Of a stretch of DNA of 64,000 bases, positions 10,201 to 63,279 are shown piece by piece. Below the pieces are notes generated by a model. The model was not told the origin of the DNA. It did not search any database and saw only the letters and a program-made list of their open reading frames with translations. The stretch's first letter is position 1; each line of letters starts with the position of its first letter. The position numbers and the translations under genes are program-made. This DNA comes from Siphonodentalium dalli. Lineage: Eukaryota > Mollusca > Scaphopoda > Gadilida > Siphonodentaliidae. The stretch is from NCBI GenBank assembly GCA_032622095.1, contig CP136069.1, positions 185,493,122 through 185,557,121 on the forward strand, given 5' to 3'.

Positions 10201-13200
10201 TTACAGGTTTTAGTACCATTTTACCTACCCTCAGTCAGCCATATCCTATTCGGAATTTCGGTCGCATGGGATATGGCTGGCTTCGGGTAGGTAAAACTCA
10301 CACAGTAATGCCCTAAATAATCGACTCCTTAACCACAGCAGAATTATGGGTAACTTTTCAAGATTTAGTCGGTAATATGGCTTGTTGACATTCATTGGAA
10401 AGCTCTCACTGAGAGCTTTCCGATGAATGGCAACAAGCCATATTTCCGATTAAATCCTGAAAAGTTACCAATAATTCTGCTGTGGTTAAGGAGTCGATTA
10501 TTTAGGGCATTACTGTACTATATGAACAGGCTTGGGGTAATTAATAGTATTAATATAACATGTATCTTCCGATCCCTAACCATATACTATTTGATTAATT
10601 TTCAGGTGCCAACTTTCAAAGATGGTGATGTCGTCATCAATGAATCCATGGCGATTGTTAATTACTTGGAGGTATAATTTTTCATTTTATTTAGTCTTTG
10701 TTCAGCCACCTTAGAGGTGTATAAGGCCTTGTTTTTTTATCACAATATGTGTTGTACACTATAGGCACCTTATTTGGAATGATTGATACAATTGATTGTA
10801 CTATATGGCCAGATATTGATATCAATAATGATACCACCTGTTGGATTAATATAGAATACACCCATAGAAGCCGAGAGAACCAAATTTTCACCATGAGTAG
10901 AATTGTGGTTTTTGTGGTTTTAACCACGAGCATTTTGGAGGGTGTTTAATACCAGGAGTGGTTTTAGTTACTTTTTCCCATCTGTTCAGTTTCTATATCA
11001 CATATAATTTGAAGAAGATGAAATGCATAATCGAGGTGATTATAGATGGATTATCTCTTAGATAATTTCCTGGGTATGAAATAATATGTATGAGTTGGAA
11101 ATCCATGGCTGGAAATTATTCTATCAATTAATATTGATTTTATTTTGATATTATGTTATTCAATTAATAGGACACTTCTTTGTTCTATAAATAGAACTTT
11201 TAGATAGAGGCCTCCAGGGTGGTGCTCTGAACAATTGCGAGCCGCAAAATAGCTAAATTTGTCTCTGATAGATTGTACCGGTATCTATTGTAATATTGTG
11301 CAAATCAAGTGGATAAGACCTAGAGTGTATCATATGCTTAATTTCAATGATCAAAATAGCTGAAAATAAAAAAAAAAATGCAAATATAATGACGGTCGTG
11401 AATATCAGGGACCATTATTGAATGGCACAGAGTTGTTTTATTGGAAAAAAATTCCAAATAAAACCAATATTAATTGATAGATGCGTATCCGAACAGGGGT
11501 CTTTGATTCATATCTATTATTTCATAAAAACTATATTGATAATGCTGCAGAAGAGATCATCCACCTTTAATTGGAGAACATCACTTCAACTGGGGAACTT
11601 AAATCTGGTCCTAGGTCTCTGGGAGACCGTCTCCCATAGCGTTTGAGGACTAAGCAGAATCAAGTTCCCAGATAGTGAATTTGGTGATTCTAGCCCGTCA
11701 TGCGGGATAGCATCACTAAATTCACCCTCTGGGACCTTATTCTAAAAATATCAGACACACTATATCTTGCAATGAATATTCTTTTTGGTTTCGATCTGCT
11801 CCTACTGATTACTTCATACTCGGAAACATGGCTTCTTCTAAACATGGCATTGATGGCAATACCACCAATAACAGGCATTCACGCCATTCAGATTCAATAG
11901 TCTAGACTAATTTAAAGCTCTAATTTGCTTCTGCATATACATGTACAGTAGACTTCTATGTCAACATCATAAAAAAGCTTAAATTATCACATTAATAAGA
12001 ATTTTACATTGTGCAGAGCAAGTACAAGGATAAGGGAACAGTTCTGATACCAAGTGACCCAAAAGAACAGGCTCTCGTTCAGCAGAGAACATACGAGGTT
12101 TGTTAATTTATTGCAAATTTCCCTTAAAGACATATTATGTACTTGTTCAGGCGCGTGAAACTGATAAGTTAGTAATCAGGCACTATGTCAATTGGAGGAA
12201 TGCAACATTCTACTACCACCGCCGAAAACCTGAAGCAAATCGACCGTACCACTCCATAGAAAACATATTCTGAACTACGCTCAAATGTAAATATTTACTA
12301 CTCGATTCGATCTATCGGCAATAAACTAATGAAAACGATTTCATCATCGAGAGTCACTGCATTTAGTTAATAATTAGAATGACGGTGTGTGTTATCAATT
12401 TAGATATACTATTGTAAAAATAACTACTTTGAACAAGATTATTTTCCATTTCTATATTTGATCACTCTACCGGAGTGTTTCACATCACTTTAACCTTACT
12501 CCACCCCTAACACCCCAAAATTTATGAAAATCATTGGATGTGATTGAACGGTATCTGGAGAAGTCAACTTTTTGGCTTTCCCTCTTATTTATCATTCTAT
12601 TCATTTCTCAGCAAAAAGTAAACTCCTTCCCAAGTTGAGGTACAGTCATTGACACTTTCATTTTATTTATTTAAATCAATTTTGACAAAATAACACCATT
12701 ATAACCTCTGCCAGGTACTTCGAGTCACCACACCAAATTTGGTTTAAATCAGTCTAGGGTTCTGGGAGAAAAATCTGAACAGATGGACTCACAGATCCTA
12801 TTCTTTTATATATATATAGATTATGTAGAATGTTAGATGTTAAAAAAACTTTAGTCATCAATTGTGAGCAACAAGCCTTGAAATAGGGTGTCTGTCATTT
12901 GCAGAATGAGGTCCCCAGAGGGTGAATTTAGTGATGCTACCCTGCATAGCGGGCTAGCATCACCAAATTCACCCTCTGGGAACCTCATTCTGCTGAGGTG
13001 TAAGCAGAATGAGGTCCCCAGAGGGTGAACTTGGTGATGCTAGCCCACTATGCGGGGTAGCATCACTAAATTCACCCTCTGGGGACCTCATTCTGCAAAT
13101 GACAGGCTCACTATTTCAAGGCTTGGTGAGCAAAGAATAATTTCGTACGGGGCTGAATTCTCTGAAGCCTCCTTTGTTTTAGGCTAACGTTTCCTATGTT

Positions 13201-40562: not shown

Positions 40563-41060
40563 CCTTGACTCAAATCAAATATATTCCACCCACGAAGCCA
40601 AATATATTTCACCCATGAAGCCAAATATATTTCACCCACAAAGCATAATATATTTCAACCACGAATCCAAATATATTTCACCCACGAAGCAAACTATATA
40701 TCACTTACGAGGCCAAATATATTTCACCCACGAAGCCAAATATATTTCACCCATGAAGCCAAATATAATTCACCCATGAAGCCAAATATATTTCACCCAT
40801 GAAGCCAAATATATTTCACCCATGAAGCCAAATATATTTCACCCATGAAACCAAATATGTTTCACCCACAAAGCCAAATATATTTCACACACGAAGCCAA
40901 ATATATTTCACCTACGAAGCCAAATATGTTTCACCCACGAAGCCAAATATATTTCACCCACGAAGCCAAATATATTTCACCCATGAAGCCAAATATATTT
41001 CACCCGCGAAGCAAAATATATTTCACCCACGAAGCCAAATATATCTCACCCACGAAGCCT
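40563..41060 (+). repeat. 24-bp minisatellite, about 20 units
   Basis: Units AATATATTTCACCCACGAAG plus CCAA, with few substitutions (CCCATG, CCTACG, CACACG). The unit is recognisable as the TTAA-5 interior AAATATATTTTACCCCGAAGCC. Frames through it are open by chance. Confidence 0.9.
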
Positions 41061-47700: not shown

Positions 47701-50700
47701 AACATGAACACTGCTGTTATACAATGGGGGCATTCATGCATGGCTAATCCATGCAGGTACATTGTAGAGCAGTAGTAGGCGACAAAAAGTTAACCCCATT
47801 CCTCCAGTGGTTTTAAAAGGCGGGATATATATCAATATAGTTCAGTGCAACAGCCTCCTTCAGCGGAAAATTTATTTTTTAGAAATGGAATTGAGTTTCC
47901 TTTATTCTCGTGGAATAAATTTATCGATGAAATCGTAAAATGCTGTGCACATTCTTATTTCAGGTACGAATTAAGGCAGTGACAAATATGAATGCAAAAA
48001 AATATGTTAAAATATTAGTAGTTATCCCAGAGAATGTTCATAGTTTGTTGAACTTATTATCAGAACATTTCCCACCAATGAATAGGATTCCTTGTGCACT
48101 TTCTACTACCTGTCGTCTGCTTTTATATCTAAACATCCCTACAGATGTATTATAGACCCTTCCAATGCATAATTTTAAAACTGATTGGGAGAATCCATTC
48201 AGTATGGAAAGGGTTAAATTATCTATTATTATAATGCAACTCACCCATGCTTGACAAATCTCTGGAAGTATTTGCCAGCACAGTTATCAGTATTTTTGTT
48301 TGAACAGTAGAATGGTCTGTGTCCGAGAGCAATTATCCACGGTCTGACATCACGATGCTTGTTTGCTTCAATGAGGTCATCTAATAGAAAATAAAACTGC
48401 TTGCATACCATATCCTGGTCAAACACAAAATAGTATTCTGAGTTGTACCTGTAGACAAAAGAATGACCGGAGATGTATTAAAGACATGACATTATCAATT
48501 AGCATTATATTATTTTCAAACGTTGGACTGCCTCCATTTATTTCCATTTACAGATATTTTAATTATAAATATGGTAAGAGAACAAGAAAACTGGTTCATA
48601 AATTAGTGAAAAGAGTCTGGAAAACTCTACAAAATATTTTTCGTAAAAATCTTGTATCTGATGGCAGTTTCAGTTCTTAATCGTTCCTGAAGATACAAGT
48701 GTGTATATTGAAGAGCATCAATATGGGACTTTACATTGAGTAGAATGTGATTGTTCTGACATTTAAATAGTTATGGACATCATTGAAATGAGCTCAAATG
48801 TAGTAAAACCATAATCGCGTAGACTGCTGACTTCAGGGAAAATAATCAATAATATTATTATTCACACAATGTGAATGATCAAGGTACAACACCAGGTTTG
48901 TTCATATGGAGACGAATGTGCTGTTGTGTAAATAAATCCTGGAATATGTGTAAGTTTTACAAGCAAGGAAACATGGAAGATTTTACCATGATTTATCGTT
49001 TTACATGTGAAGGTTGGTGTTGTTGTTGAGATTAGTTAAATATAAATATAAATGTAAATATAATTGTCAATCCAGTCCAATCTTCCTTTATGCAAGAAAC
49101 TCATTAATATAACCCTCATACTTTCCTGTGGTTTGACATAAACTCAGAAGTCATATTATTTTTCGCTCAGATTTAATAACACAGCACAAATTTAAATATG
49201 AGTAAGATAATCTATATAGATCAGTATAGATGTCCAAAAATCACTGTCGAGGAGCGCACTTCGAATTTTGAGAATGACTTTGATTTCATCGCCACCAGTT
49301 TTTGAAGTTTTTCATAAAAAGGTTGTTTCGTGGGAACGTGAATTCATGTATCAAGCTTTAACCCGTTCATGACGGGAGCCGCGCTGGTGCAGCATTAAAG
49401 GTCCTGTGCCCTTTGTTGAAATTACCATGGTGCATTTTGCCAAGCCCTAGCAATGCTTTTGTTCAAACATAACACCAGTATACGAGATAGGTACACAGAC
49501 TGAACGTTATGTCTCTTTTCAGCATGTTGTAAAATTGTTGTTAAAAAACATGGAAAGCGAGATGAAACATAATAAATTCATATAAAATAGCAGATTCATT
49601 ATTTGTTATATCCAATGTTGCTTCCTTCTATAATATTCTATTCGAAATGTGAATGCCCAAGGCAACTTATCTTTGGGAAACCAAACATTTGGAATATTTA
49701 ACAAGGGTTATAACTCAGGCAATATCTGTCAGACCAACCGATATAAAAAACTTGCCCTGTGATTAAACCACATATCATGTTTTTAGTCAATTGAGAAACA
49801 AATACTAAAATGTTGATAGACGGATGAACAGACAGAAGCCTGGTAACACAGGCGGATGAACGGACAGACTGATTATATTAATACTCACGTGACAAAGTGA
49901 ACATTGCCGATATCATAGCTGTACCACAATCTTCCATATTCCATCGGCCATCTGGAGCCAGGCATTGAGAATCTGTTTCTATAAACAATAAACTTGTTGT
50001 GGATTTCTGAAAAATTAACATATTTGTATTAACCATTTTGATACTAAATACTCATTGACGAGTAGTTCCCTTAGGAGATTTTCAGCTAATAAGTTCAACG
50101 AAAGGACAATGACGATAAGTTGTTTGTTGAACTTATCATCTGAACATTTCCCAGCAATTCATAGGAATCCTTTATTTTTTATAACATTTTTATTCAGATC
50201 TCAGAAGATTTTCAATAATTGGTACATAATAGGTACATATAATAAATGGTACATGTTTATATGTACATATTTTAAGTCTCAATGTAAACATTAAAGTGTA
50301 TATGAATATGTTAAATAAATATATACATCTATGGTTTTTGATAATTTTGAGCATTTCTTTAGTTATGCACAAATGCCCAAGCAGACATCTCTAGGGTCCT
50401 GTTGTGACTACCATTGCATCCCCCAAACTGCCAAGGAGCACCAGGAGTCAGAGATGGATATCTATCCGTTGCCACCAACCCCTGCCTGGGTCAGAGCATC
50501 ACCAGTCGTCCGATCCCTCCCAGCCCACGAATGGATATGAATCCTTCTGCTCTTGTATTATCTGTTATTCGGTCGTTGTCTGCTTTTGTTACCTGAACAC
50601 CCCTCCAAATGAATAATAAACTGTTCCAATATATACTTTTATAACTTAAAGTGATGTGAAACAATCAGGTTGGTGATTAAATAGAAATGTAGAATAATCT

Positions 50701-53700: not shown

Positions 53701-56700
53701 TATGGGAGACCTAACTTCAGATTTAAGTTTCCCAGTTGAAGTTGGTGATATTCACCAATTAGCCCAGTTCTGGTTAACCCTTTACCCAACAGAACGGCCC
53801 TGTGCCAATGCATTCTCTTATATATGCGAGTCGACCATAGGTCGCCTCGCATATATAAGAGAATGCATTGGCTTAACACATTAAAAAAAATTTAGGCCAA
53901 TGCATTCTCTTATATATGCGAGGCGACCTATGGTCGACTCGCATATATAAGAGAATGCATTGGCACAGGGCATAACTGTAACTATCACAATGTGGTCAAG
54001 GAGCCGGTTCCAATGATATCCATATTTGTATGGTTCTATTGAGACAGACCGAAGATATTTTAGGCTGTTGAATCTTTATTTGGCCGGTTTTGGCCGGTTT
54101 GTTGGGTAAAGGGTTAAAACACCGACTATATAGCAATGACGCTGTACTGAGTCTTGAGTATTTGGGGGATCCCTATTACCACAAGCAAGCATTACGTCAG
54201 TCTCAACCAATCACAACTTAGTATCAACAAAGCGATGTAGCCATTCAGGCGAGAGATGAAATCTCTATACAGTTGCAGATTTGCCACATAACTAAAAATA
54301 GCGTCAGTTTGAAGCATCGGATAATAATTATATAGGCGATATCGGTCATTGGTAAAGCTATTTATGTGCTGTGGCATCATACTACATGGGTAGCATACGT
54401 TATTTATATCGTCACAGGGCTATTTGGTAATAGGAGACACAGGCATTTTCTCCAGACCAAGTATTACATAGCAATTCGAGTCAGGTTTACCCAGAACTGC
54501 CTAAAGCCATGTGACCTCCATTAGGCATTTTATCATCTGCAAATTTGGGGATATAGAAACTAAACAGAAGGGAAATTGTAGCTAAAACAATGTTAACTTA
54601 AGACTATAGATACTTCACAGAAGATGAGGCCTAAGCAGGATGAGGTCTCCAGAGGGTACATTTGGTGATGCTAGCCCACTGTGTGCCGTAAAGAGACTAC
54701 TGATAGATGACAGTATGAATCTGAGTGTATAATTACAGACTATACTTACCATGGTTACCAGGGAAACCCATGTATGGTGTATGTGCAGCTAACTTACCAT
54801 GGTTACCAGGGAAACCCATGTATGGTGTATGTGCAGCTAACTTACCATGGTTACCAGGGAAACCCATGTATGGTGTATGTGCAGCTAACTTACCATGGTT
54901 ACCAGGGAAACCCATGTATGGTGTATGTGCAGCTAAATTACAATGGTTACCAGGGAAACCCATGTATGGTGTATGTGCAGCTAACTTACCATGGTTACCA
55001 GGGAAACCCATGTATGGTGTATGTGCAGCTAACTTACCATGGTTACCAGGGAAACCCATGTATGGTGTATGTGCAGCTAACTTACAATGGTTACCAGGGA
55101 AACCCATGTATGGTGTATGTGCAGCTAACTTACCATGGTTACCAGGGAAACCCATGTATGGTGTATGTGCAGCTAACTTCTCCAGTTCTTGGAACCATTT
55201 TTCACCTACCTTAGAAAGATAAAAAACATTCCTCAAATTATTAACCCTTTCATGACAGGATCTGCACTGGTGCAGCATTAAAGACCCTATGCCAGTGCAT
55301 TCTCTTATTTAGGCCAATGTATTCTCTTATATATGTGAGCTATGGGAGAACTTGATACTATTTTCAAGGCCGAACTGATGGACTGATTTCTATAGAGAAT
55401 GATTTCGCTAACAAGAGTCACATTGAGTAAGTTTATTCATTCTGCGCCACCTCTGCAGAATGTTTCCCATCACTTTAATCACTTTAAAGGTTTACAAGGT
55501 ACACAATCTTATTCTATGGTCCCCGATTTCTTCAAAAGACTCTTTAGTTATCACAATCAATTAGTTACTAAAAAATAATGCTAACCACTGTCAACTCTAG
55601 AATAAAATAATGCTAAACACTGTCAACTCTAGAATAAAATAATGCTAACCACTGTCAACTCTAGAATAAAATAATGCTAACCACTGTCAACTCTAGAATA
55701 AAAATAATGCTAACCACTGTCAACTCTAGAATAAAATAATGCTAACCACTGTCAACTCTAGAATAAAACAAGTGCACCGCTGGGCGGAGGTAACGCCCCC
55801 GACTGTACAATCAGAGAAACTTTCTGGTTAAGCGCTATAAAAATGCCACATGTTGTTCTATATTAGCTTCAAATTTGGTCTGGTGCCACAAAAATAAAAC
55901 TGAATTTTCTAAAAAAAACCTGAATTTTTTAAGTCGAAAAAGGGTCATAACTCTCACAAAAATTATCCGATTGAACCGAAATTTTACCTTGACCTGTATT
56001 GCGATATTGGTAATACACAAAAAAAAACGGGTTTGCAAATAAACAATCCAAAATCTGGAAACCAAAAAAAGTAGCAGAAAACCTGAATTTTCTAAGTCCA
56101 AAAAGGGGCGTAACTCTGGAAAAAATGGGCGGACGAAACCACGGCTATGGGGAAATCTTGTCCCCCCGGCTGGTCTATTGGCATACCAAAGATCAACTGA
56201 ATTGAATTAGCGAAACCAAAGTTATGAGTTGAAACGCTCGTATGCCACAGAAAACTGAAAATAATGCTAACCACTGTCAACTCTAGAATAAAATAATGCT
56301 AACCACTGTCAACTCTAGAATAAAATAATGCTAACCACTGTCAACTCTAGAATAAAAATAATGCTAACCACTGTCAACTCTAGAATAAAATAATGCTAAC
56401 CACTGTCAACTCTAGAATAAAATAATGCTAACCACTGTCAACTCTAGAATAAAAATAATGCTAACCACTGTCAACTCTAGAATAAAAAATAATGCTAACC
56501 ACTGTCAACTCTAGAATAAAATAATGCTAACCACTGTCAACTCTAGAATAAAAAATAATGCTAACCACTGTCAACTCTAGAATAAAATAATGCTAACCAC
56601 TGTCAACTCTAGAATAAAAAATAATGCTAACCACTGTCAACTCTAGAATAAAAATAATGCTAACCACTGTCAACTCTAGAATAAAATTTCAAAAACAAGT

Positions 56701-59700
56701 TATACATGTATATCAACATTTTGTTCAACACAATTTGGTACAGAGAGAATATCAGCCAGCACGTCGAATAAAGGAGAGAATATCAGCCAGCACGTCGAAT
56801 AAAGGAGAGATTATCAGCCAGCACGTCGAATATTTGCTAGGCTGCCAAATATTCCAAGCGGTGAAATAGATATCTGATAACTCTGATGGGTGTGTTCCTC
56901 GACTCGAATAATATATTTTTACTCCCGAAGCCAAAGAAATAGTAATTTAGGAGCGTTAATTTTGATTATGTATCTTTAATCACTTACCACTCCATCCTCT
57001 GCCCATATATCATAAGCAAAGTCACCTAAATGCCATATTACATCAAACTCTGTTTTGTTCACTTCCATGAGTAAGGCCGGAAGAGTTGTGAAGTCTCTGT
57101 ATCCCCAGTCACCATAGACAAGATATTTAGCTACCCAATTCTAAAATACAATTAATAAGTAGAAATGATAGTATCCATTATGAAAGTGTCAATGACACTG
57201 TAGCCCAACTTGGGGAGGCGTTAATAATTTTATACTGAGCAGTCAATAAAATGATAAAGAAGGAAATTCAAATGTTTCAGTAAATGGATTATATTGCATA
57301 TATGAAATTAATTTCATTTCAAACATTTCCCCTCTAAATGTGGGCTGCAGGGTGGATGGATTCAAATGTGAAATCCAAGATGGCTCCAGGCACGCATGTT
57401 TTTCATCAAATTACAGAAGAATTTGGAGAGCTTCCATCTAGAGGTCACATCAAAGAACCATATGAAATTTGGATGAGAAATGAGGAATGTGGCATGTAGT
57501 CATGAAAAGACTAAAATCCAACATGGGCGCTGGCAACCATGTTTTTTAAGGAAATTTGGAAATATCATTGGCTCCCATCTAGAGGTCACCCTGAAGATGC
57601 ATATAAAGTTTGGTGATGATGGACAAGGGATGTGGTCTGTAGGTAGCGCCAAAGGATTTAGTTATGCAAGCTTCCGGCGGCCATGTTTTTTATTGTATAT
57701 CTTTCAAATTCGATACCTCTCATTTAGAGGTGATCCTAATCAAAACATTTATTACACATATGCTGTCTGCAGGGTGCGCCGATGGATTGAAATTTTAAAT
57801 CCAAGAAGGCTGCTGGCAGCTATGTATTTTAACAAATTTCACAAATAATCGATGGGTCCCATCTAGACGTAACCCCGAAGATTCGTATGAAGTTTGATGA
57901 CAATCGGATGAGGGATGTGGCCTGTAGAGTGTGCCAAAGGATTTAGTCATGCTCAGAGTAAATTCAAGTAGGCAGCTGGCAGCCATGTTTTTTAATGAAT
58001 TTCAGAAAATATCAATGGCTTCCATCTATAGTTCACCCTGAAGATGCATATATATATTTTTGTGATGATCGGAAAAGGGACACAATTTCAGGCTTGTATG
58101 ACAGATGCTTTTAACCCTTTACCCAACAGAACGGCCCTGTGCCAATGCATTCTCTTATATATGCGAGTCGACCATAGGTCGCCTCACATATATAAGAGAA
58201 TGCATTGGCTTAACACATTAAAAATTATAAAATTGCTAAAGAATGTAAGAAAAAATGGTAAAAAGTGTTAAAAAAAGATTTATTTTAGGCTAAAGCATTC
58301 TCTTATATATGCGAGGCGACCTATGGTCGACTCGCATATATAAGAGAATGCATTGGCACAGGGCATAACTGTAACTATCACAATGTGGTCAAGGAGCCGG
58401 TTCCAATGATATCCATATTTGTATGGTTCTATTGAGACAGACCGAAGATATTTTAGGCTGTTGAAGCTTTATTTGGCCGGTTTTGGCCGGTTTGTTGGGT
58501 AAAGGGTTATATCCATTCGAAATTTCACAGAAAACTCGCTCTTTTTCCCCAACGATGATCAGACAATAACTCTTCAAAAGTTTTGTCCTTGTCCACTTGA
58601 GCCATGAATTGAGTTGTTTCTTTAAGACAACATTAAATAAAATGCAAGGCTGCCACGATCTTCATGAGCGCCTCCAGGTTTTACACCATTGAGTCGACTC
58701 AGTTTTGAAGGGGCAGTCACAGAATGAGGTCCCCAGAGTGTGAATTTAGTGATGCTATCTCAAATGGCAAGCTAGCGTCACCAAATTCATCCTCTGGGGA
58801 CCTCATTCTGGTTAGGCCTCAAATGCTATGGGAGACCTGGGATCAGATAGAAGTTCCCCAGTTGAAGTTCGCGATGCTTACACATTAGTCACCTTGATTA
58901 TACATTATATCTTCTGCAAATTAGGGGATATAGAAACTGAACAGAAGGGGAAAACTATAATCAATGTTAATTTGAGACTATAGATACTTCCAAGAAGATG
59001 AGGCTTAAGCTGATTGAGGTCCCCAGAGGGTGAATTTGCTGATGATAGCCTGCTCTGTGGGGTAGCATCACTAAATTCAAACTCTGGGGACCTCATTTTG
59101 TAAATGACAGACACTATATCCAGGCTTGTATCAAAGGCAGCTGACATCAGCGGAAACAGTTTCACGACAGTGTGTATGTTTATTTGTCACATGTAGTTGA
59201 CATTGAAAGCACACATACACATATTAACCAAAAACACTGTCATAATACGGAGTTCGATGTATAGATTTGGCATATACACTCACTCCTTGTTCTCTGACAG
59301 AGTTGAAGTTATATATAGGAGACGATGCTGTACCATTCACACCACGACATATAACTGTATAGTAATATTTGGTTCCAGGTTGAAGATTCTGAAATAAGAT
59401 TAAGGTTGATGAATTAGCGTGTTTTAATTTAAATATAGTAAATAATAAAAATAATAATAGCACTTATAATATAGTGCTTATAACCCATAATGGGTCGTAA
59501 TCGCTTTACATATTAGAATAAATACATATAATATGCACATGAGACAGATAATCTATGGATATGTGGATTGTTTCACGACAATCAGGTTTTGTTATTCAAT
59601 TTCTTGGAGTTGGGATATAATAGTCTAGCTTTATGATTTTCAACCCCGATGTTATCAGACAGACAATCGGTGTCTAAACAGGGTATACTTTTGTGCCAGT

Positions 59701-61780
59701 CTATCGATTTTAAGATAATCGGTTGTGTTGCTAAATTAAAAAATTTTGTTTTCTGTCATCCTATTGGATGGAACCCTGAATGAATGTTTAACTCTTTCAT
59801 GATGGGAGCTGCGTTGGTGCAGCATTAAGATCCTGTGCCAGTGCATTCTCTTATATCATATACTAGTATAAGAGAACACATTGGTCTAATAATATTTTGT
59901 ATTGTAAGCCTATGCATTGGTATAGGTTATCACAAAATTTCAAAATTGTTTTTATTGAAGAAGCCATATTTTGATTTTTGAAGTCAAATTAATTTATCCA
60001 CCTTAAATTTTTGTCGGGTGAGCAAAAACTCCATATGAATTGGAAAATATATATAGAATATGTAGCTAGTGCAGTCACTTAAACTGTTTAAGCCTGGGAG
60101 GGGGATTTAACTGTTTAAGCCTGTGAGGGGGATTAAACTGTTTAAGGCTGTGAGGGGGATTAAACTGTTTAAGCCTGTGAGGGGGATTTAAGCATCTATT
60201 TGGCCGATGTCAGCAGTTAACATGTAGCTACAGTGTATCTGCAGTCAAGGAAAATAACCTGGGTTTCTTACTGCAATTAATCGCGGTGCCAGCCACAGAA
60301 GTCACAGAAATGTTAACTGAGGTGAGTTATGGTTTGACCGCAGTTATAAATACATAATAACCCCAGTTACTGGGTTAACTAGAGGTGTGACTGTCCCAAT
60401 GGGACTAAGGATACCCCCCGTGTTTTTAAAATACTAAGATGTTTCACATGTCAGTAAACATTTAGTTAAAATAATAAAATAACAGTTCCCATTGCAGGTG
60501 CACAAACCTAACCATAATCTTAAACTTATTGACCGAAAAATGTAGGAATAAAAGCTCGGACAAAATTATGCATTTTGCAAAAAGTCGAAAAAGGGGAATA
60601 ACTCCACAAAAAAGTCGGACAGACATCATAATCGCGGGTGCACAGGTTCTCATGTTACTAAATATCAGTGCCAAGATTAAAAAACATTGACCTAAAAATG
60701 TAGGAATAAAAGCTCGGACAAAATTATACATGTTGCACAAATTTTCTAAGTCTAAAAAGGGGGAATAACTCCACCAAAAAAAGTCGGACAGACGTCATAA
60801 TCGCAGGTGCACATGTTCCCATGGTGGTTGATGCCTGTGCCAAGTTTCACGGAAATTGATAAAAAAACGACTGAGAAAATCTCCAGACAAATTTGTGTCC
60901 ACGGACTGACGACAAACGGACGAGCTAACTCCAGTATACCCCCCCCCCCTAACTTCGTTGCGGGGGGTATAATTACTTAGGAGAGTACAGTAGATACAAA
61001 GAATATACATGTAGGATACAGCAAGACATTGACGTCTGAATACCAAGCCTTGACATAGAATGTCTGCATTTGCAGAATGAGGTTCCCAGCAGGTGAATTC
61101 AGTGAAGCGATCCAGCACAGTGAGATAGCATCACCAGATTCACCCTCTTTTGGACCTCATTCTGCTTATGCCTCATCTTCTGGGAAGTATCAATAGTCTC
61201 AAAATAACAGTGTTTTTAGTTAGTTATGTTCATTTTCTATATCCCCTAATTTGCAGAAGATAAAATACATAACCGATGTGACTAATTGGTCAACATCACC
61301 GACTTCAACTGGGGAACCTCAATCTGATCCTAGGTCTTCCATATCAGTTTAGGCCTGATCAGAATGAGGTTCTTTGAGGAATGAGGAATTTTGGTGACCT
61401 TAGCCCACCATGCGGGATAGCGTCACTAAATTCACTTTCTGGGGACCTCATTCTGCAAATGACAGACACTATTCCAAGGCTTGCTGAACACAGTATGGAT
61501 GTATAGCAGCAAAGAGGTTAAATAATAAATGACATAACCAACAATTCAGGTCTACTCACAATCATAACAGCGCGATGCATCAGACGCAATGTAATATCAG
61601 ATACTTCTGGGATAATAGCAGTTGTTTCATTGGCTATCGTTGTCTGATGATTCGGCTGCAAACCGTAAGTCAAATGGCACTTTGTCTTGTTATGAGTGGT
61701 CCACAGGATAAACATCTCTGAGTGAGTGTTGCCTAAACTGAGGTGAATCTGCTCAGGTTTCCGCTGAGTTAGTCCGGAGC
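41321..61780 (-). CDS. ACP7: Purple acid phosphatase, ACP7-like (eight exons found, 5' end missing)
   Basis: Minus-strand exons, 5' to 3': 61780-61560, 59388-59284, 57140-56988, 55209-54750, 50006-49889, 48448-48245, 45849-45656, 41760-41321. All have AG/GT borders, mostly GTGAGT or GTAAGT donors, and compatible phases. An Fn3-like N-terminal domain (IHLSLGN, LQPGTKYYYTV) precedes the dinuclear metallophosphatase domain. All five metal motifs are present: GDWG, GDFAYD, GNH plus E across a splice, GHRPFYC and AHEHSYERFWP. The NRFSMPG and LWYSYDIGNVHFVT segments are typical of animal ACP7. Expected role: secreted or lysosomal acid hydrolysis of phosphate esters. The signal-peptide exon should lie above 61,780 and was not found. 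Oddities are a nine-fold repeated exon end and a C-terminus with two hydrophobic stretches. With a single repeat copy the visible protein is about 500 aa. Orthology to ACP7 is likely but by recall only. Confidence 0.93.
41930..42840. mobile_element. TTAA-5 element, degenerate, interrupted by a pogo-like element
   Basis: Family segments ATAATGCTAACCACAGTCAA (42,031) and TAGTATAAAATTGCCTGAAA (42,569) are separated by the insertion. The GACTCGAATCAAATATTTTT segment follows at 42,795. Confidence 0.6.
42053..42570. mobile_element. Pogo/Tigger-like non-autonomous element 2
   Basis: TA-flanked ends CAGTTAAACTTTGTTAAGTC and the complement of CAGTCAAACTTCGTTAAGTC. About 515 bp. Several TTCGACTTA-type words occur inside, plus a (TTTA)n run at 42,166-42,184. 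The 84-codon ORF at 42,311-42,565 has no transposase motif. Confidence 0.7.
42985..44345. mobile_element. Dispersed repeat interrupted by a hAT-like element
   Basis: GGGAATAACTCTATATCTTA and GACCTATAATGACTTAAAG (43,190-43,208) continue at 44,241 with ACTTAAAGAGGCACTAATA. Two to three diverged ~130-bp units with TTAGATA.GTCCGTT.AC are visible. Confidence 0.5.
43209..44240. mobile_element. hAT-like element, CAGGCCTCAGCT ends, perfect 8-bp target duplication
   Basis: CAGGCCTCAGCTCA at the left; GGCTGAGGCCTG at the right. ACTTAAAG occurs directly on both sides (43,201-43,208 and 44,241-44,248). 1,032 bp, no transposase. GTCGCC repeats occur near the left end and GAAGTCTCCCTAAATTTCCT repeats near the right end. 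Confidence 0.85.
44423..44812. mobile_element. TA-flanked element rich in ACCGCGGTAT words
   Basis: Inverted ends TACCGCTATTCTCAAAGTAA and the complement of TACCGCTATACTTAAAGTAA. The interior holds many GATACCGCGGT-type words and a duplicated TTTTAGCGGGCAC(C/T)GCATTA segment. Confidence 0.6.
44826..45150. mobile_element. Dispersed repeat (TTGACCTGTATTTTCATGTG type)
   Basis: Two diverged units each with GGGCGGA..GAA...AA(A/T)T, GACCTGTATT.T.ATGTGGG and AAAGTTATCA. Related to 27,770 and 55,800. Confidence 0.55.
45151..45655. other. Phosphatase intron 7 sequence, nothing recognised
   Basis: No supported feature before the donor of exon 7. Confidence 0.4.
45656..45849 (-). CDS. ACP7: Phosphatase exon 7 (GHxH motif)
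   Basis: LEDMFHAQGVDLVLEAHEHS, YERFWPVY, then DPRASLHFISGNAGN. The two His of AHEH are metal/phosphate ligands. GG|A and G|AT junction phases fit both neighbours. Confidence 0.94.
46034..46207. mobile_element. TTAA-2 element, one end missing
   Basis: Ends GGACCTGGCACTCAAAGGGTTAA with one hairpin core. The other end is lost in an AT-rich run. A TTAA-4-like fragment (TTAACCATTTCTTTACAAAA) lies just before, at 45,911. Confidence 0.6.
46437..46512 (+). repeat. Repeat with GTTCAGTG...GCTTCCTTTAGCGGAAAA
   Basis: A similar segment is found at 47,838-47,905 (GTTCAGTGCAACAGCCTCCTTCAGCGG...). Two copies of a dispersed sequence in the same intron. Confidence 0.45.
46641..46859. mobile_element. TTAA-1 element, copy 6 (internally deleted)
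   Basis: Both TTAA ends are intact. The two cores are collapsed to one minimal hairpin (TCTCTTATATAAGAGA), showing internal loss by recombination between core copies. Confidence 0.8.
46860..48045. other. Phosphatase intron 6 sequence, few features
   Basis: ATTTGGCCAAA-type words recur at 47,610-47,700. Otherwise nothing was recognised. Confidence 0.35.
48046..48217. mobile_element. TTAA-4 element, right part
   Basis: TTTGTTGAACTTATTATCAG to GAGAATCCATTCAGTATGGA and AAGGGTTAA. It ends 28 bases from exon 6. Confidence 0.6.
48245..48448 (-). CDS. ACP7: Phosphatase exon 6 (GHRPFYC motif)
   Basis: YNSEYYFVFDQDMVCKQFYF, LLDDLIEANKHRDVRPWIIA, LGHRPFYCSN, then NCAGKYFQRFVKHG. Holds metal ligand His of motif IV. 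The acceptor is TTGTCTACAG and the donor GTGAGT. Confidence 0.94.
48449..49357. other. Phosphatase intron 5, nothing recognised
   Basis: AT-rich; no supported ORF or repeat. Confidence 0.35.
49358..49412. mobile_element. TTAA-3 left-end fragment
   Basis: TTAACCCGTTCATGACGGGA to AAAGGTCCTGTGCCCTT, then stops. Confidence 0.65.
49889..50006 (-). CDS. ACP7: Phosphatase exon 5 (completes GNHE)
   Basis: The acceptor TTAATTTTTCAG is followed by AA, which completes the Glu codon of GNHE when exon 4 ends in G. Then IHNKFIVYRNRFSMPGSRWP and LWYSYDIGNVHFVT. An alternative downstream AG (TTGTTTATAG) would shift the frame, so the longer exon is chosen. Confidence 0.93.
50029..51049. mobile_element. TTAA-4 element interrupted by TTAA-6
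   Basis: TTAACCATTTTGATACTAAA at the left; GAGAATCCATTCAGTATAGA and TTGTTAA at the right. The interior includes TTTGTTGAACTTATCATCTG and a GC-richer stretch (50,400-50,540) not seen in other copies. Confidence 0.6.
50646..51017. mobile_element. TTAA-6 element, copy 3 (nested)
   Basis: TTAA-bounded; GTGATGTGAAACAATCAGGT at one end and AAGTCCATAATATGTCTTTAA at the other. In reverse orientation to the copy at 12,124. Confidence 0.65.
51080..51726. mobile_element. TTAA-4 element interrupted by hAT-1
   Basis: TTCTTTACTGAATGGATTCT before, and ATTCAGTTATAAATGCATAC, TTTGTTGAACTTACTATGTG after the insertion. Confidence 0.5.
51113..51561. mobile_element. hAT-1 element with target duplication ATTCTCCC (nested)
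   Basis: Starts CAAGCCTGAGTACAGCGTGT and ends CTAAACTCAGACTTG. The same ATTCTCCC lies on both sides. Both palindromes and the interior are present. Confidence 0.75.
51727..52574. other. Phosphatase intron 4 sequence with one hAT-1 fragment
   Basis: 52,121-52,176 is a hAT-1 right end (TTCACCCTCTGGGGACCTCA to TTTCAAGGCTTGG). Nothing else was recognised. Confidence 0.45.
52575..53503. mobile_element. Inverted-repeat element (AGACCCAC...ATGAGGGTAGC ends) carrying TTAA-5
   Basis: Left CAGACCCACATACATGAGGG and right CCCTCATATATAATAGTGGG/TCT are inverted. TCCGGA and TCCGGCA-type words occur near both ends. The TTAA-5 copy at 52,854 sits inside. Confidence 0.55.
52854..53252. mobile_element. TTAA-5 element, copy 2 (nested, complete)
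   Basis: TTAA at both ends, GATACATTATCC at the left and TCAGATTGTGTATC at the right, with the conserved GAGTCGAGGCACCCACCCAT interior. Confidence 0.65.
53555..54690. mobile_element. hAT-1 element interrupted by TTAA-1 and other sequence
   Basis: The left palindrome and GTTGAAGTTGGTGATATTCA (to 53,765) and the right interior (54,530-54,690) are parts of one element. TTAA-1 (53,774-54,117) and about 410 unassigned bases lie between. Confidence 0.6.
53774..54117. mobile_element. TTAA-1 element, copy 7
   Basis: TTAA ends, two hairpin cores with a shortened spacer. Orientation as copy 2. Confidence 0.8.
54745..55176 (-). repeat. 48-bp coding minisatellite, nine units, spanning an exon-intron border
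   Basis: Nine units of exactly 48 bases with almost no divergence. On the minus strand each encodes LAAHTPYMGFPGNHGK and contains the 5' splice site CATG|GTAAGT. Units 2 (55,081-55,128) and 5 (54,937-54,984) have CATT at the border, and unit 5 also has a weakened donor (GTAATT). 48 is a multiple of three, so the frame stays open through all units. Confidence 0.97.
54750..55209 (-). CDS. ACP7: Phosphatase exon 4 (GNH motif, repeated)
   Basis: The acceptor TTTATCTTTCTAAG precedes VGEKWFQELEK, then LAAHTPYMGFPGNH. Using the first donor gives an exon of 76 bases (55,134-55,209), the size expected for the family. Using the last gives 460 bases. The coordinates give the longest form. Each form ending in CATG joins exon 5 to make GNHE. 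Confidence 0.88.
55241..55345. mobile_element. TTAA-3 fragment
   Basis: TTAACCCTTTCATGACAGGA to CCAATGTATTCTCTTATATA. It sits 32 bases from exon 4. Confidence 0.65.
55577..55769 (+). repeat. 32-34-bp minisatellite, array 1 (about six units)
   Basis: Units ATAATGCTAACCACTGTCAA plus CTCTAGAATAAA, differing mainly in the length of the A run. Confidence 0.85.
55775..56256. mobile_element. Dispersed repeat inserted between the two minisatellite arrays
   Basis: Starts AAGTGCACCGCTGGGCGGAG. Contains AAAAAGGGTCATAACTCTCA and TTGACCTGTATTGCGATATT, as in the repeats at 27.8 and 44.8 kb. Non-coding. Confidence 0.55.
56257..56690 (+). repeat. 32-35-bp minisatellite, array 2 (about thirteen units)
   Basis: Same unit as array 1. 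A second small array of ~30-bp units (GAGAATATCAGCCAGCACGT) follows at 56,745-56,830. Confidence 0.85.
56988..57140 (-). CDS. ACP7: Phosphatase exon 3 (GDWG and GDFAYD motifs)
   Basis: 51 codons: NWVAKYLVYGDWGYRDFTTL, PALLMEVNKTEFDVIWHLGD, FAYDIWAEDGV. Carries the Asp and Tyr ligands of motifs I and II; the Tyr gives purple phosphatases their colour. Phase 0 at both ends; the donor is GTG|GTAAGT. Confidence 0.95.
57183..58090 (+). mobile_element. Element of diverged ~165-bp repeats (GGCAGCCATGTTTTT type), copy 2
   Basis: Five units with AAATCCAAGATGGCT-like, GGCAGCCATGTTTTTTAA-like, CATCTAGAGGTCACCCTGAA and GGGATGTGG.CTGTAG words. Opposite strand to the copy at 16,050-16,900. Confidence 0.6.
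58111..58510. mobile_element. TTAA-1 element, copy 8
   Basis: Left TTAA intact, right end changed to TTAT. Two hairpin cores. Orientation as copy 2. Confidence 0.78.
58716..59129. mobile_element. hAT-1 element, left tip missing
   Basis: Both GAATGAGGTCCCCAGAG palindromes and the interior are present, in reverse orientation. Ends GACACTATATCCAGGCTTG. Confidence 0.7.
59284..59388 (-). CDS. ACP7: Phosphatase exon 2 (Fn3-like domain end)
   Basis: 35 codons: NLQPGTKYYYTVICRGVNGT, then ASSPIYNFNSVREQG. The LxPGTxYYY motif is standard in purple phosphatases. The acceptor is CTTATTTCAG and the donor GTGAGT. Confidence 0.93.
59389..60065. other. Phosphatase intron 1 sequence with a TTAA-3 fragment
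   Basis: 59,788-59,940 starts TTAACTCTTTCATGATGGGA and keeps a decayed core. The rest is AT-rich and unrecognised. Confidence 0.45.
60080..60190 (+). repeat. ~27-bp tandem repeat, four units
   Basis: AAACTGTTTAAGCCTGTGAG plus GGGGATT, repeated with few changes. Confidence 0.85.
60377..60975 (-). mobile_element. Element with CCCCCCGCAACGAAGTTAGG head, copy 2
   Basis: Inverted relative to 9,085-9,822. From AACTAGAGGTGTGACTGTCC to TTCGTTGCGGGGGGTATAAT, with one fewer internal unit. Shares the CTAAAAATGTAGGAATAAAA words. Confidence 0.65.
61042..61483. mobile_element. hAT-1 element, long form
   Basis: CAAGCCTTGACATAG to CTATTCCAAGGCTTG. Flanks CTGAATAC and CTGAACAC are a one-mismatch 8-bp target duplication. 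Confidence 0.75.
61560..61780 (-). CDS. ACP7: Phosphatase exon 1 found (Fn3-like domain start)
   Basis: GSGLTQRKPEQIHLSLGNTH, SEMFILWTTHNKTKCHLTYG, then VSDITLRLMHRAVMI. The acceptor TTTATTTTCAG shows an earlier exon exists. The first two bases complete a codon from it. PEQIHLSLG is the normal start of the mature domain, so only a leader exon should be missing. Confidence 0.92.
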
Positions 61781-62241: not shown

Positions 62242-63279
62242 AGTGTGGCATGGAATACTACCGTATGCTATTAGTGTGGCATGGAAATTATACTACCGTA
62301 TGCTATTAGTGTGGCATGGAATACTACTGTATGATATTAGTGTGGCATGGACTACTACTGTATGCTATTAGTGTGGCATGGAATACTACCATATGCTATT
62401 AGTGTGGCATGGAATACTACTGTATGCTATTAGTGTGGCATGGACTACTACCGTATGTTATTAGTGTGGCATGGAATACTACCATATGCTATTAGTGCGG
62501 CATGGAATACTACCGTATGCTATTAGTGCGGCATGGAATACTACCGTATGCTATTAGTGTGGCATGGACTACTACCGTATGTTATTAGTGTGGCATGGAA
62601 TACTACCATATGCTATTAGTGCGGCATGGAATACTACAGTATGCTATTAGTGTGGCATGGACTACTAGTCTACTACCGTATGTTATTAGTGTGGCATGGA
62701 CTACTACCGTATGCTATTAGTGTGGCATGGAATACTACCGTATGTTATTAGTGTGGCATGGAATACTACTGTATGCTATTAGTGTGGCATGGAATACTAC
62801 TGTATGATTTTAGTGTGGCATGGACTACTACCGTATGCTATTAGTGTGGCATGGAATGCTAACGTATGCTATTAGTGTGGCATGGAATACTACTGATTGC
62901 TATTAGTGTGTCATGGAATACTACTGTATGCTATTAGTGTGGCATGGACTACTACCGTATGTTATTAGTGTGGCATGGAATACTAACGTATGCTATTAGT
63001 GTGGCATGGAATACTAACGTATGCTATTAGTGTGGCATGGAATACTACTGATTGCTATTAGTGTGTCATGGAATACTACCGTATGCTATTAGTGTGGCAT
63101 GGACTACTACCGTATGTTATTAGTGTGTCATGGAATACTACCGTATGCTATTAGTGTGGCATGGACTACTACCGTATGCTATTAGTGTGGCATGGAATAC
63201 TAACGTATGCTATTAGTGTTGCATGGAATACTACTGTATGTTATTAGTGTGGCATGGAATACTACCGTATGCTATTAGT
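62242..63279 (+). repeat. 31-bp satellite array, about 33 units
   Basis: Units AGTGTGGCATGGAATACTAC plus CGTATGCTATT. Variants (GGACTAC, TGTATG, TGTTATT, GCGGC, AACGTATG, GTGTCATGG) recur in higher-order patterns, for example ACTGATTGCTATTAGTGTGT twice, about 170 bases apart, which shows block duplication. Confidence 0.95.

Follow-up and report, generated by a model that had tools for sequence, protein, structure and literature searches.

Exon 4 of a gene on the minus strand of our window, the 64,000-nt stretch of the Siphonodentalium dalli genome analyzed here, ends in a short unit repeated nine times in tandem, each copy carrying its own 5' splice site. Which of these nine donors ends the exon, and are the repeated units exon or intron? 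The first-pass annotation of this DNA suggested that the gene could yield a phosphatase in which an active-site segment occurs one to nine times. The window corresponds to C9:185493122-185557121 of the genome that we searched (2.23 Gb, 9 contigs).

The gene had been read as a phosphatase from its letters, and domain searches support that identity. The spliced single-copy protein, with six exons joined, matched Pur_ac_phosph_N (PF16656; 64 bits) and Metallophos (PF00149; 48 bits), both above the cut-off, and aligned through GNHE with 6gja, a solved purple acid phosphatase. Only the joined protein scored; Pfam searches with single exons gave no match above the cut-off, and an Rfam scan of the whole window returned 0 matches at the gathering score. 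The protein contains GDxG, GDxxY, GNHE, and GHxx, which we take to be the motif list of purple acid phosphatases, and the GDWG...GDFAY segment of exon 3 presumably holds metal-ligand motifs. We take the gene to belong to an ACP7-like family. It resembles that family in having both domains and a GNHE that aligns with 6gja; as for differences, its protein would be ordinary if the first unit alone were used.

Table 1. Exons of the phosphatase gene and parts of its exon-4 array (positions within the window).
Feature	Position	Strand	Basis
Exon, N-terminal domain (PF16656), first part	61560..61780	-	Splice sites and homology
Exon, N-terminal domain (PF16656), second part	59284..59388	-	Splice sites and homology
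Exon 3, GDWG...GDFAY	56988..57140	-	Splice sites and homology
Exon 4, 76-nt form to the first donor, encoding VGEKWFQELEKLAAHTPYMGFPGNH(E); putatively functional	55134..55209	-	Unit list
Junction-spanning tandem array, 48 bp x 9 (3' end of exon 4 and 5' splice site)	54744..55179	-	TRF
Units 2-9 (8 x 48 bp), probably intron in the main transcript; open and in frame if retained	54750..55133	-	
Exon 5, opening with the AA that completes Glu in GNHE	49889..50006	-	Splice sites read
Exon 6, GHRPFYCS	48245..48448	-	Splice sites read

Exon 4 starts at 55209, after TTTCTAAG on the minus strand. TRF described the array at its 3' end with a period of 48, 9.1 copies, a match of 98%, and a score of 851. 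The unit list resolved nine units of 48 bp without indels, a number that has no independent check because the window was taken from the searched assembly. Each unit encodes KLAAHTPYMGFPGNHG, apart from two with GNHC and one with N for K, and the complete list of differences comprises CATG>CATT (units 2 and 5) and, following unit 5, GTAAG>GTAAT. Donors begin with GT in 9/9 units, reading GTAAGT in 8/9 and GTAATT in 1/9. With the letters that we take to form the U1 5' end, predicted pairing was equally strong in seven donors (-8.6 kcal/mol) and weaker in the second (-4.9) and fifth (-1.4). Exon length by donor n is 76 + 48(n-1) nt (76 at the first, 460 at the ninth). All nine ends give a length of 1 mod 3 with an open frame, and the next exon opens with AAATCC after its AG, so that GNHE is completed from any of the nine donors. 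The annotated layout is thus confirmed: nine 48-bp units at the GNH exon, a donor in each with the frame kept, and an exon range of 76 to 460 bases. We also accept its view that the units underwent recent expansion or homogenisation.

As an amphioxus structure of the same kind has already been named, we file the exon-4 array as a mirage, a splice-junction-spanning minisatellite: its tandem duplication spans the exon-intron boundary and many of its units hold a splice signal. In their accessible text, PMC3087553 and PMC3902484 describe mirages in the amphioxus genes Adh, globin, TnC, and PGBD5 (TnC and PGBD5 added by PMC3902484), with units 10-72 and 150-160 bp long and, for globin, 3 and 6 units in two haplotypes. 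The same portions of text report that regular splicing is undisturbed (PMC3087553, PMC3902484), that the Adh and TnC mirages generate no aberrant mRNAs (PMC3902484), and that mirage splice signals could serve as cryptic sites yielding alternative transcripts (PMC3087553). Units that straddle a splice junction, splice signals in many of them, and occurrence on both donor and acceptor sides are common to the amphioxus arrays, as far as that text goes, and to those described here; our case differs in coming from another animal group and in an exon-4 array that is fully in frame. On the animal group, the best PDB scores for muscle myosin exons of the searched genome were with chains from scallop (413 bits) and squid (403), above those from tarantula (364) and vertebrate (352), a mollusc-like profile that makes a lophotrochozoan probable. 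A search of the genome for the mollusc haemocyanin family gave no match, in a run where the controls did not score either. A literature search, with most subscription journals outside its scope, found no mirages described outside lancelets and the term in this sense only in these two papers. The first-pass annotation had known of no described phosphatase with such an arrangement. Within the same text this holds for phosphatases, but the structure itself was already known from amphioxus.

Paralogs of exon 4 provided a comparison. Six are close (C9a, which is the window gene, and C9b, C4a, C4b, C6a, and C6b) and three are distant. The exon-4 homologue measures 76 nt to the first donor in the 8 paralogs measured, with the array present or absent; the ninth, C6x, has a different donor position and was left out of this measurement. 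C9b, 102 kb from C9a, likewise has nine units, with other unit variants. A 10-bp insertion in its unit 4 shifts the frame of units 4-9 and places them past a stop; its donors 2 and 3 are in frame, and two of its donors read GTAATT. C6a and C6b hold 16 and 17 recognisable decayed copies of ~49 bp at irregular spacing, with a TAA immediately past the first donor and later donors decayed to TTCAGT. A further mark of mirages is a unit number that is unstable between alleles or in the soma; the comparison made here is between paralogs, with the C6a and C6b arrays differing by one 49-bp unit and small changes. C4a and C4b have exon 4 without an array. In all six close paralogs the exon 3, 4, 5, and 6 matches are free of stops, and these open frames suggest that the paralogs are functional.

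C9a and C9b share one consensus unit, although divergence between the two loci is 2-5% in exons and about 6-20% where intron blocks could be aligned. The two arrays may have been homogenised with the exon copy, for which 48 bp is too short a stretch to test. A single ancient array common to all paralogs was considered: the best intronic copy of the exon end, compared with 300 shuffles, was suggestive for C4a and C2 only (score reached by 5/300 shuffles in C4a, which has an exact 15-bp copy, 25/300 in C4b, 11/300 in C2, and 264/300 in C9x). Decay of units away from the exon was dropped as a weak idea (rho -0.45, p=0.08 in C6a; rho -0.58, p=0.014 in C6b; the two are not independent). Purple acid phosphatase matches were also seen at four places on C1 (217233578 and 247433441-247456548) in open frames of 191-560 aa, perhaps as intronless copies.

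Arrays were found at other phosphatase junctions as well, crossing an edge in 9/31 exons scanned. Exon 3 of the C6 paralogs has a ~56-bp array across its acceptor. In C4a, an 80-bp unit is repeated across the exon-3 donor (18 donors by pattern, 19 copies by TRF), and C4b shows the unexpanded single-copy state, so that these close sisters (C4a, L007 7273-8796; C4b, L008 6300-6720) offer the before and after of one exon-3 expansion. Upstream of exon 5, C6a carries 31 copies of a 58-bp unit, 98% identical and each with the acceptor and first exon bases, and C6b carries 10 (L009 506-2301 and L011 9044-9623, respectively). The unit length is not a multiple of three, and the added lengths pass through all three frames. 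This acceptor array is larger than the exon-4 junction array of the window.

The arrangement had been presented as special to a phosphatase. That does not hold, as arrays of this kind occur in two unrelated families, the kinesins and SNF2 proteins. For kinesins, the best 100 of 123 exon matches were taken with 380 bp of flank on each side and scanned by TRF at one fixed threshold, giving an array across an edge in 15/100 before curation. L101 was recounted as non-spanning after reading by eye because its array ends at AG, and recent gene duplicates were removed by hand (of the copies L114 and L116, L114 was kept). The resulting 92 exons had 12 spanning arrays at 12 exons and 12 further arrays confined to flanks. 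The SNF2 sample was 40 of 73 matches, after rows with internal stops, multiple copies of the same exon, and near-duplicate genes had been excluded by hand. It contained 3 arrays across an edge and 8 within introns only. Together, junction-spanning arrays lie at 15/132 sampled exons (264 junctions; about 11%), a new observation for this genome. The edges counted here come from HMM matches and are not exact splice sites. The weakest spanning calls are L084, L112, and L117 (1.9-2.6 copies), and a 69-bp acceptor array scored as intron-only in L068 was scored as spanning in the excluded duplicates L071 and L072.

Random seeding would predict 1.6 such arrays from the flank rate (Poisson p 2e-10), 4.5 from the window rate with the window's own array included (p 6e-5), and 5.7 from 182 kb of window and phosphatase-locus DNA (p 9e-4). 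The 15 arrays seen are likely an excess over random seeding, of 2.6 to 9 fold depending on the background. With SNF2 alone, the 3 arrays compare with 0.64, 1.35, and 1.74 expected from the flank, window, and 182 kb rates (p 0.03, 0.15, and 0.25), and significance is not reached with the window and 182 kb rates. In a cruder test, of coverage, exon edges (donors 11/85, acceptors 9/89 at a score of at least 32) did not differ from intron pseudo-edges (25/174, 24/170, and 16/136). Because that test scores each unit of an intronic array separately and takes in edge-spanning arrays as well, it was replaced by a count of array seeds.

Spanning arrays contained more copies than intron-only arrays (median 3.8 vs 2.2, p=0.010). 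Their unit lengths showed no preference for multiples of three (7/20, p=1.0); these 20 lengths, entered by hand from arrays seen, come from mixed families with the exon-4 array included and supersede an earlier list with 8 multiples of three (n=18). Nine kinesin donor arrays held 38 further donor copies downstream; 1 was open and in frame, and each of the other 37 was frame-shifted or preceded by a stop.

If those kinesins work, the unusable state of 37 of the 38 downstream copies means that the exon-proximal donor is used despite near-identical followers. The same argument applies to C6a and C6b, where donors 1 and 2 are equal in predicted U1 pairing (-8.8 kcal/mol each) and the second is behind a stop, such that a working enzyme needs the first. 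For C9a, comparison of these sequences makes it very probable that exon 4 functions in its 76-nt form, ending at the first donor, and that the other units are intron, a mirage seeded across the junction. The 76-nt exon would then be the main form in the window gene. Counted against this intron reading are the eight later donors of C9a, all of which keep an open frame and six of which equal the first in predicted U1 pairing, along with the two in-frame donors of C9b. The array could on these grounds be exonic, or alternatively so, with phosphatases bearing one to nine copies of the encoded segment: nine donors are in frame without a stop, seven at equal predicted strength. We nevertheless consider a coding repeat unlikely. 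Its frame is not kept across the paralogs, being broken in C9b and decayed or stopped in C6a and C6b, although the other exon matches are stop-free. Spanning arrays in general show no bias toward multiples of three, and the in-frame state of all nine C9a units is compatible with chance. In addition, the three variants among units all alter residues (too few to test), and in the two alignments shown the solved purple acid phosphatase fits the single-copy form here without a gap. The proposal of one to nine active-site copies as a likely product thus fares poorly against the paralogs and unit lengths.

For an intronic mirage, the unit itself suggests an origin. An AAGT in the exon (GAGAAGTTAGC) marks its start and an AAGT in the donor (GTAAGTATAG past the last unit) its end, and duplication between two AAGT words would yield precisely the 48-bp unit. 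A tandem duplication with breakpoints in these words of exon and donor GTAAGT, straddling the boundary of exon 4 and intron 4, probably founded the minisatellite that grew to nine units. The spliceosome would define exon 4 through the first, exon-proximal donor and the other eight units would be spliced out as intron, while slippage or unequal exchange could shift unit number with little effect on the enzyme. Since the unit happens to measure 48 bp and contains no stop, an exon mis-spliced to a later donor would keep the frame in this gene, which most such arrays would not allow. Alternatively, the redundancy could be under selection: surplus splice sites, or a row of U1 binding sites where a long intron begins, might buffer against splice-site mutation or shield the transcript. 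The enrichment of spanning arrays over random seeding and their higher copy number would fit, but mutational bias accounts for the enrichment equally well, acceptor arrays exist too, and donors have decayed in C6 and read GTAATT twice in C9b; we judge such selection very unlikely. An assembly or polymerase artefact is extremely improbable. Near-identical units are hard to assemble and the precise unit number may be off, yet the unit variants of C9a and C9b differ and similar arrays lie at many unrelated exons. The nine units of C9b, with their other variants, and the arrays at unrelated exons make a pure assembly artefact unlikely.

Duplication of splice signals inside a gene also recalls intron gain by tandem genomic duplication, as far as the accessible text describes it (the Rogers model; Gao and Lynch 2009, cited in PMC3087553; PMC4974935). 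Exon 4 differs in that no new intron is seen and all 8 paralogs measured retain the first boundary.

What merits following is the wider pattern of decoy-site arrays at about one in nine sampled exons. In the accessible text of PMC3087553 and PMC3902484, mirages are known from a handful of lancelet genes. It is possible, with a chance somewhat below even, that splice junctions are a hot spot for array founding in this genome, through a process tied to splice-site DNA or to transcription, leaving about one exon in nine with decoys. Such arrays would have arisen separately in lancelets, the spliceosome would pick the exon-proximal site, and in-frame arrays could feed exon extension. Many tandem decoy sites of equal strength amount to a natural experiment on how the spliceosome chooses among identical neighbours, and they bear also on the origin of introns and exon extensions. 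In a genome where ~11% of sampled exons carry such arrays, the splicing rule could be tested, and so could the mutational origin of the arrays.

Other repeats were noted in the course of this work. Tandem repeats make up about 10% of the window, with minisatellites at 62242-63279 (31 bp x 33), 40576-41059 (23 bp x 21), and 56258-56687 (32 bp x 13). A 103-bp unit with inverted halves (GCAGAATGAGGTCC...) occurs at 12901-13096 of the window and at L008 4171-4366, and L112 has a stretch resembling it. The kinesin introns of L048, L088, and L097 hold a palindromic element (GCATTCTCTTATATATGCGAG...) that is dispersed and, by eye, MITE-like.
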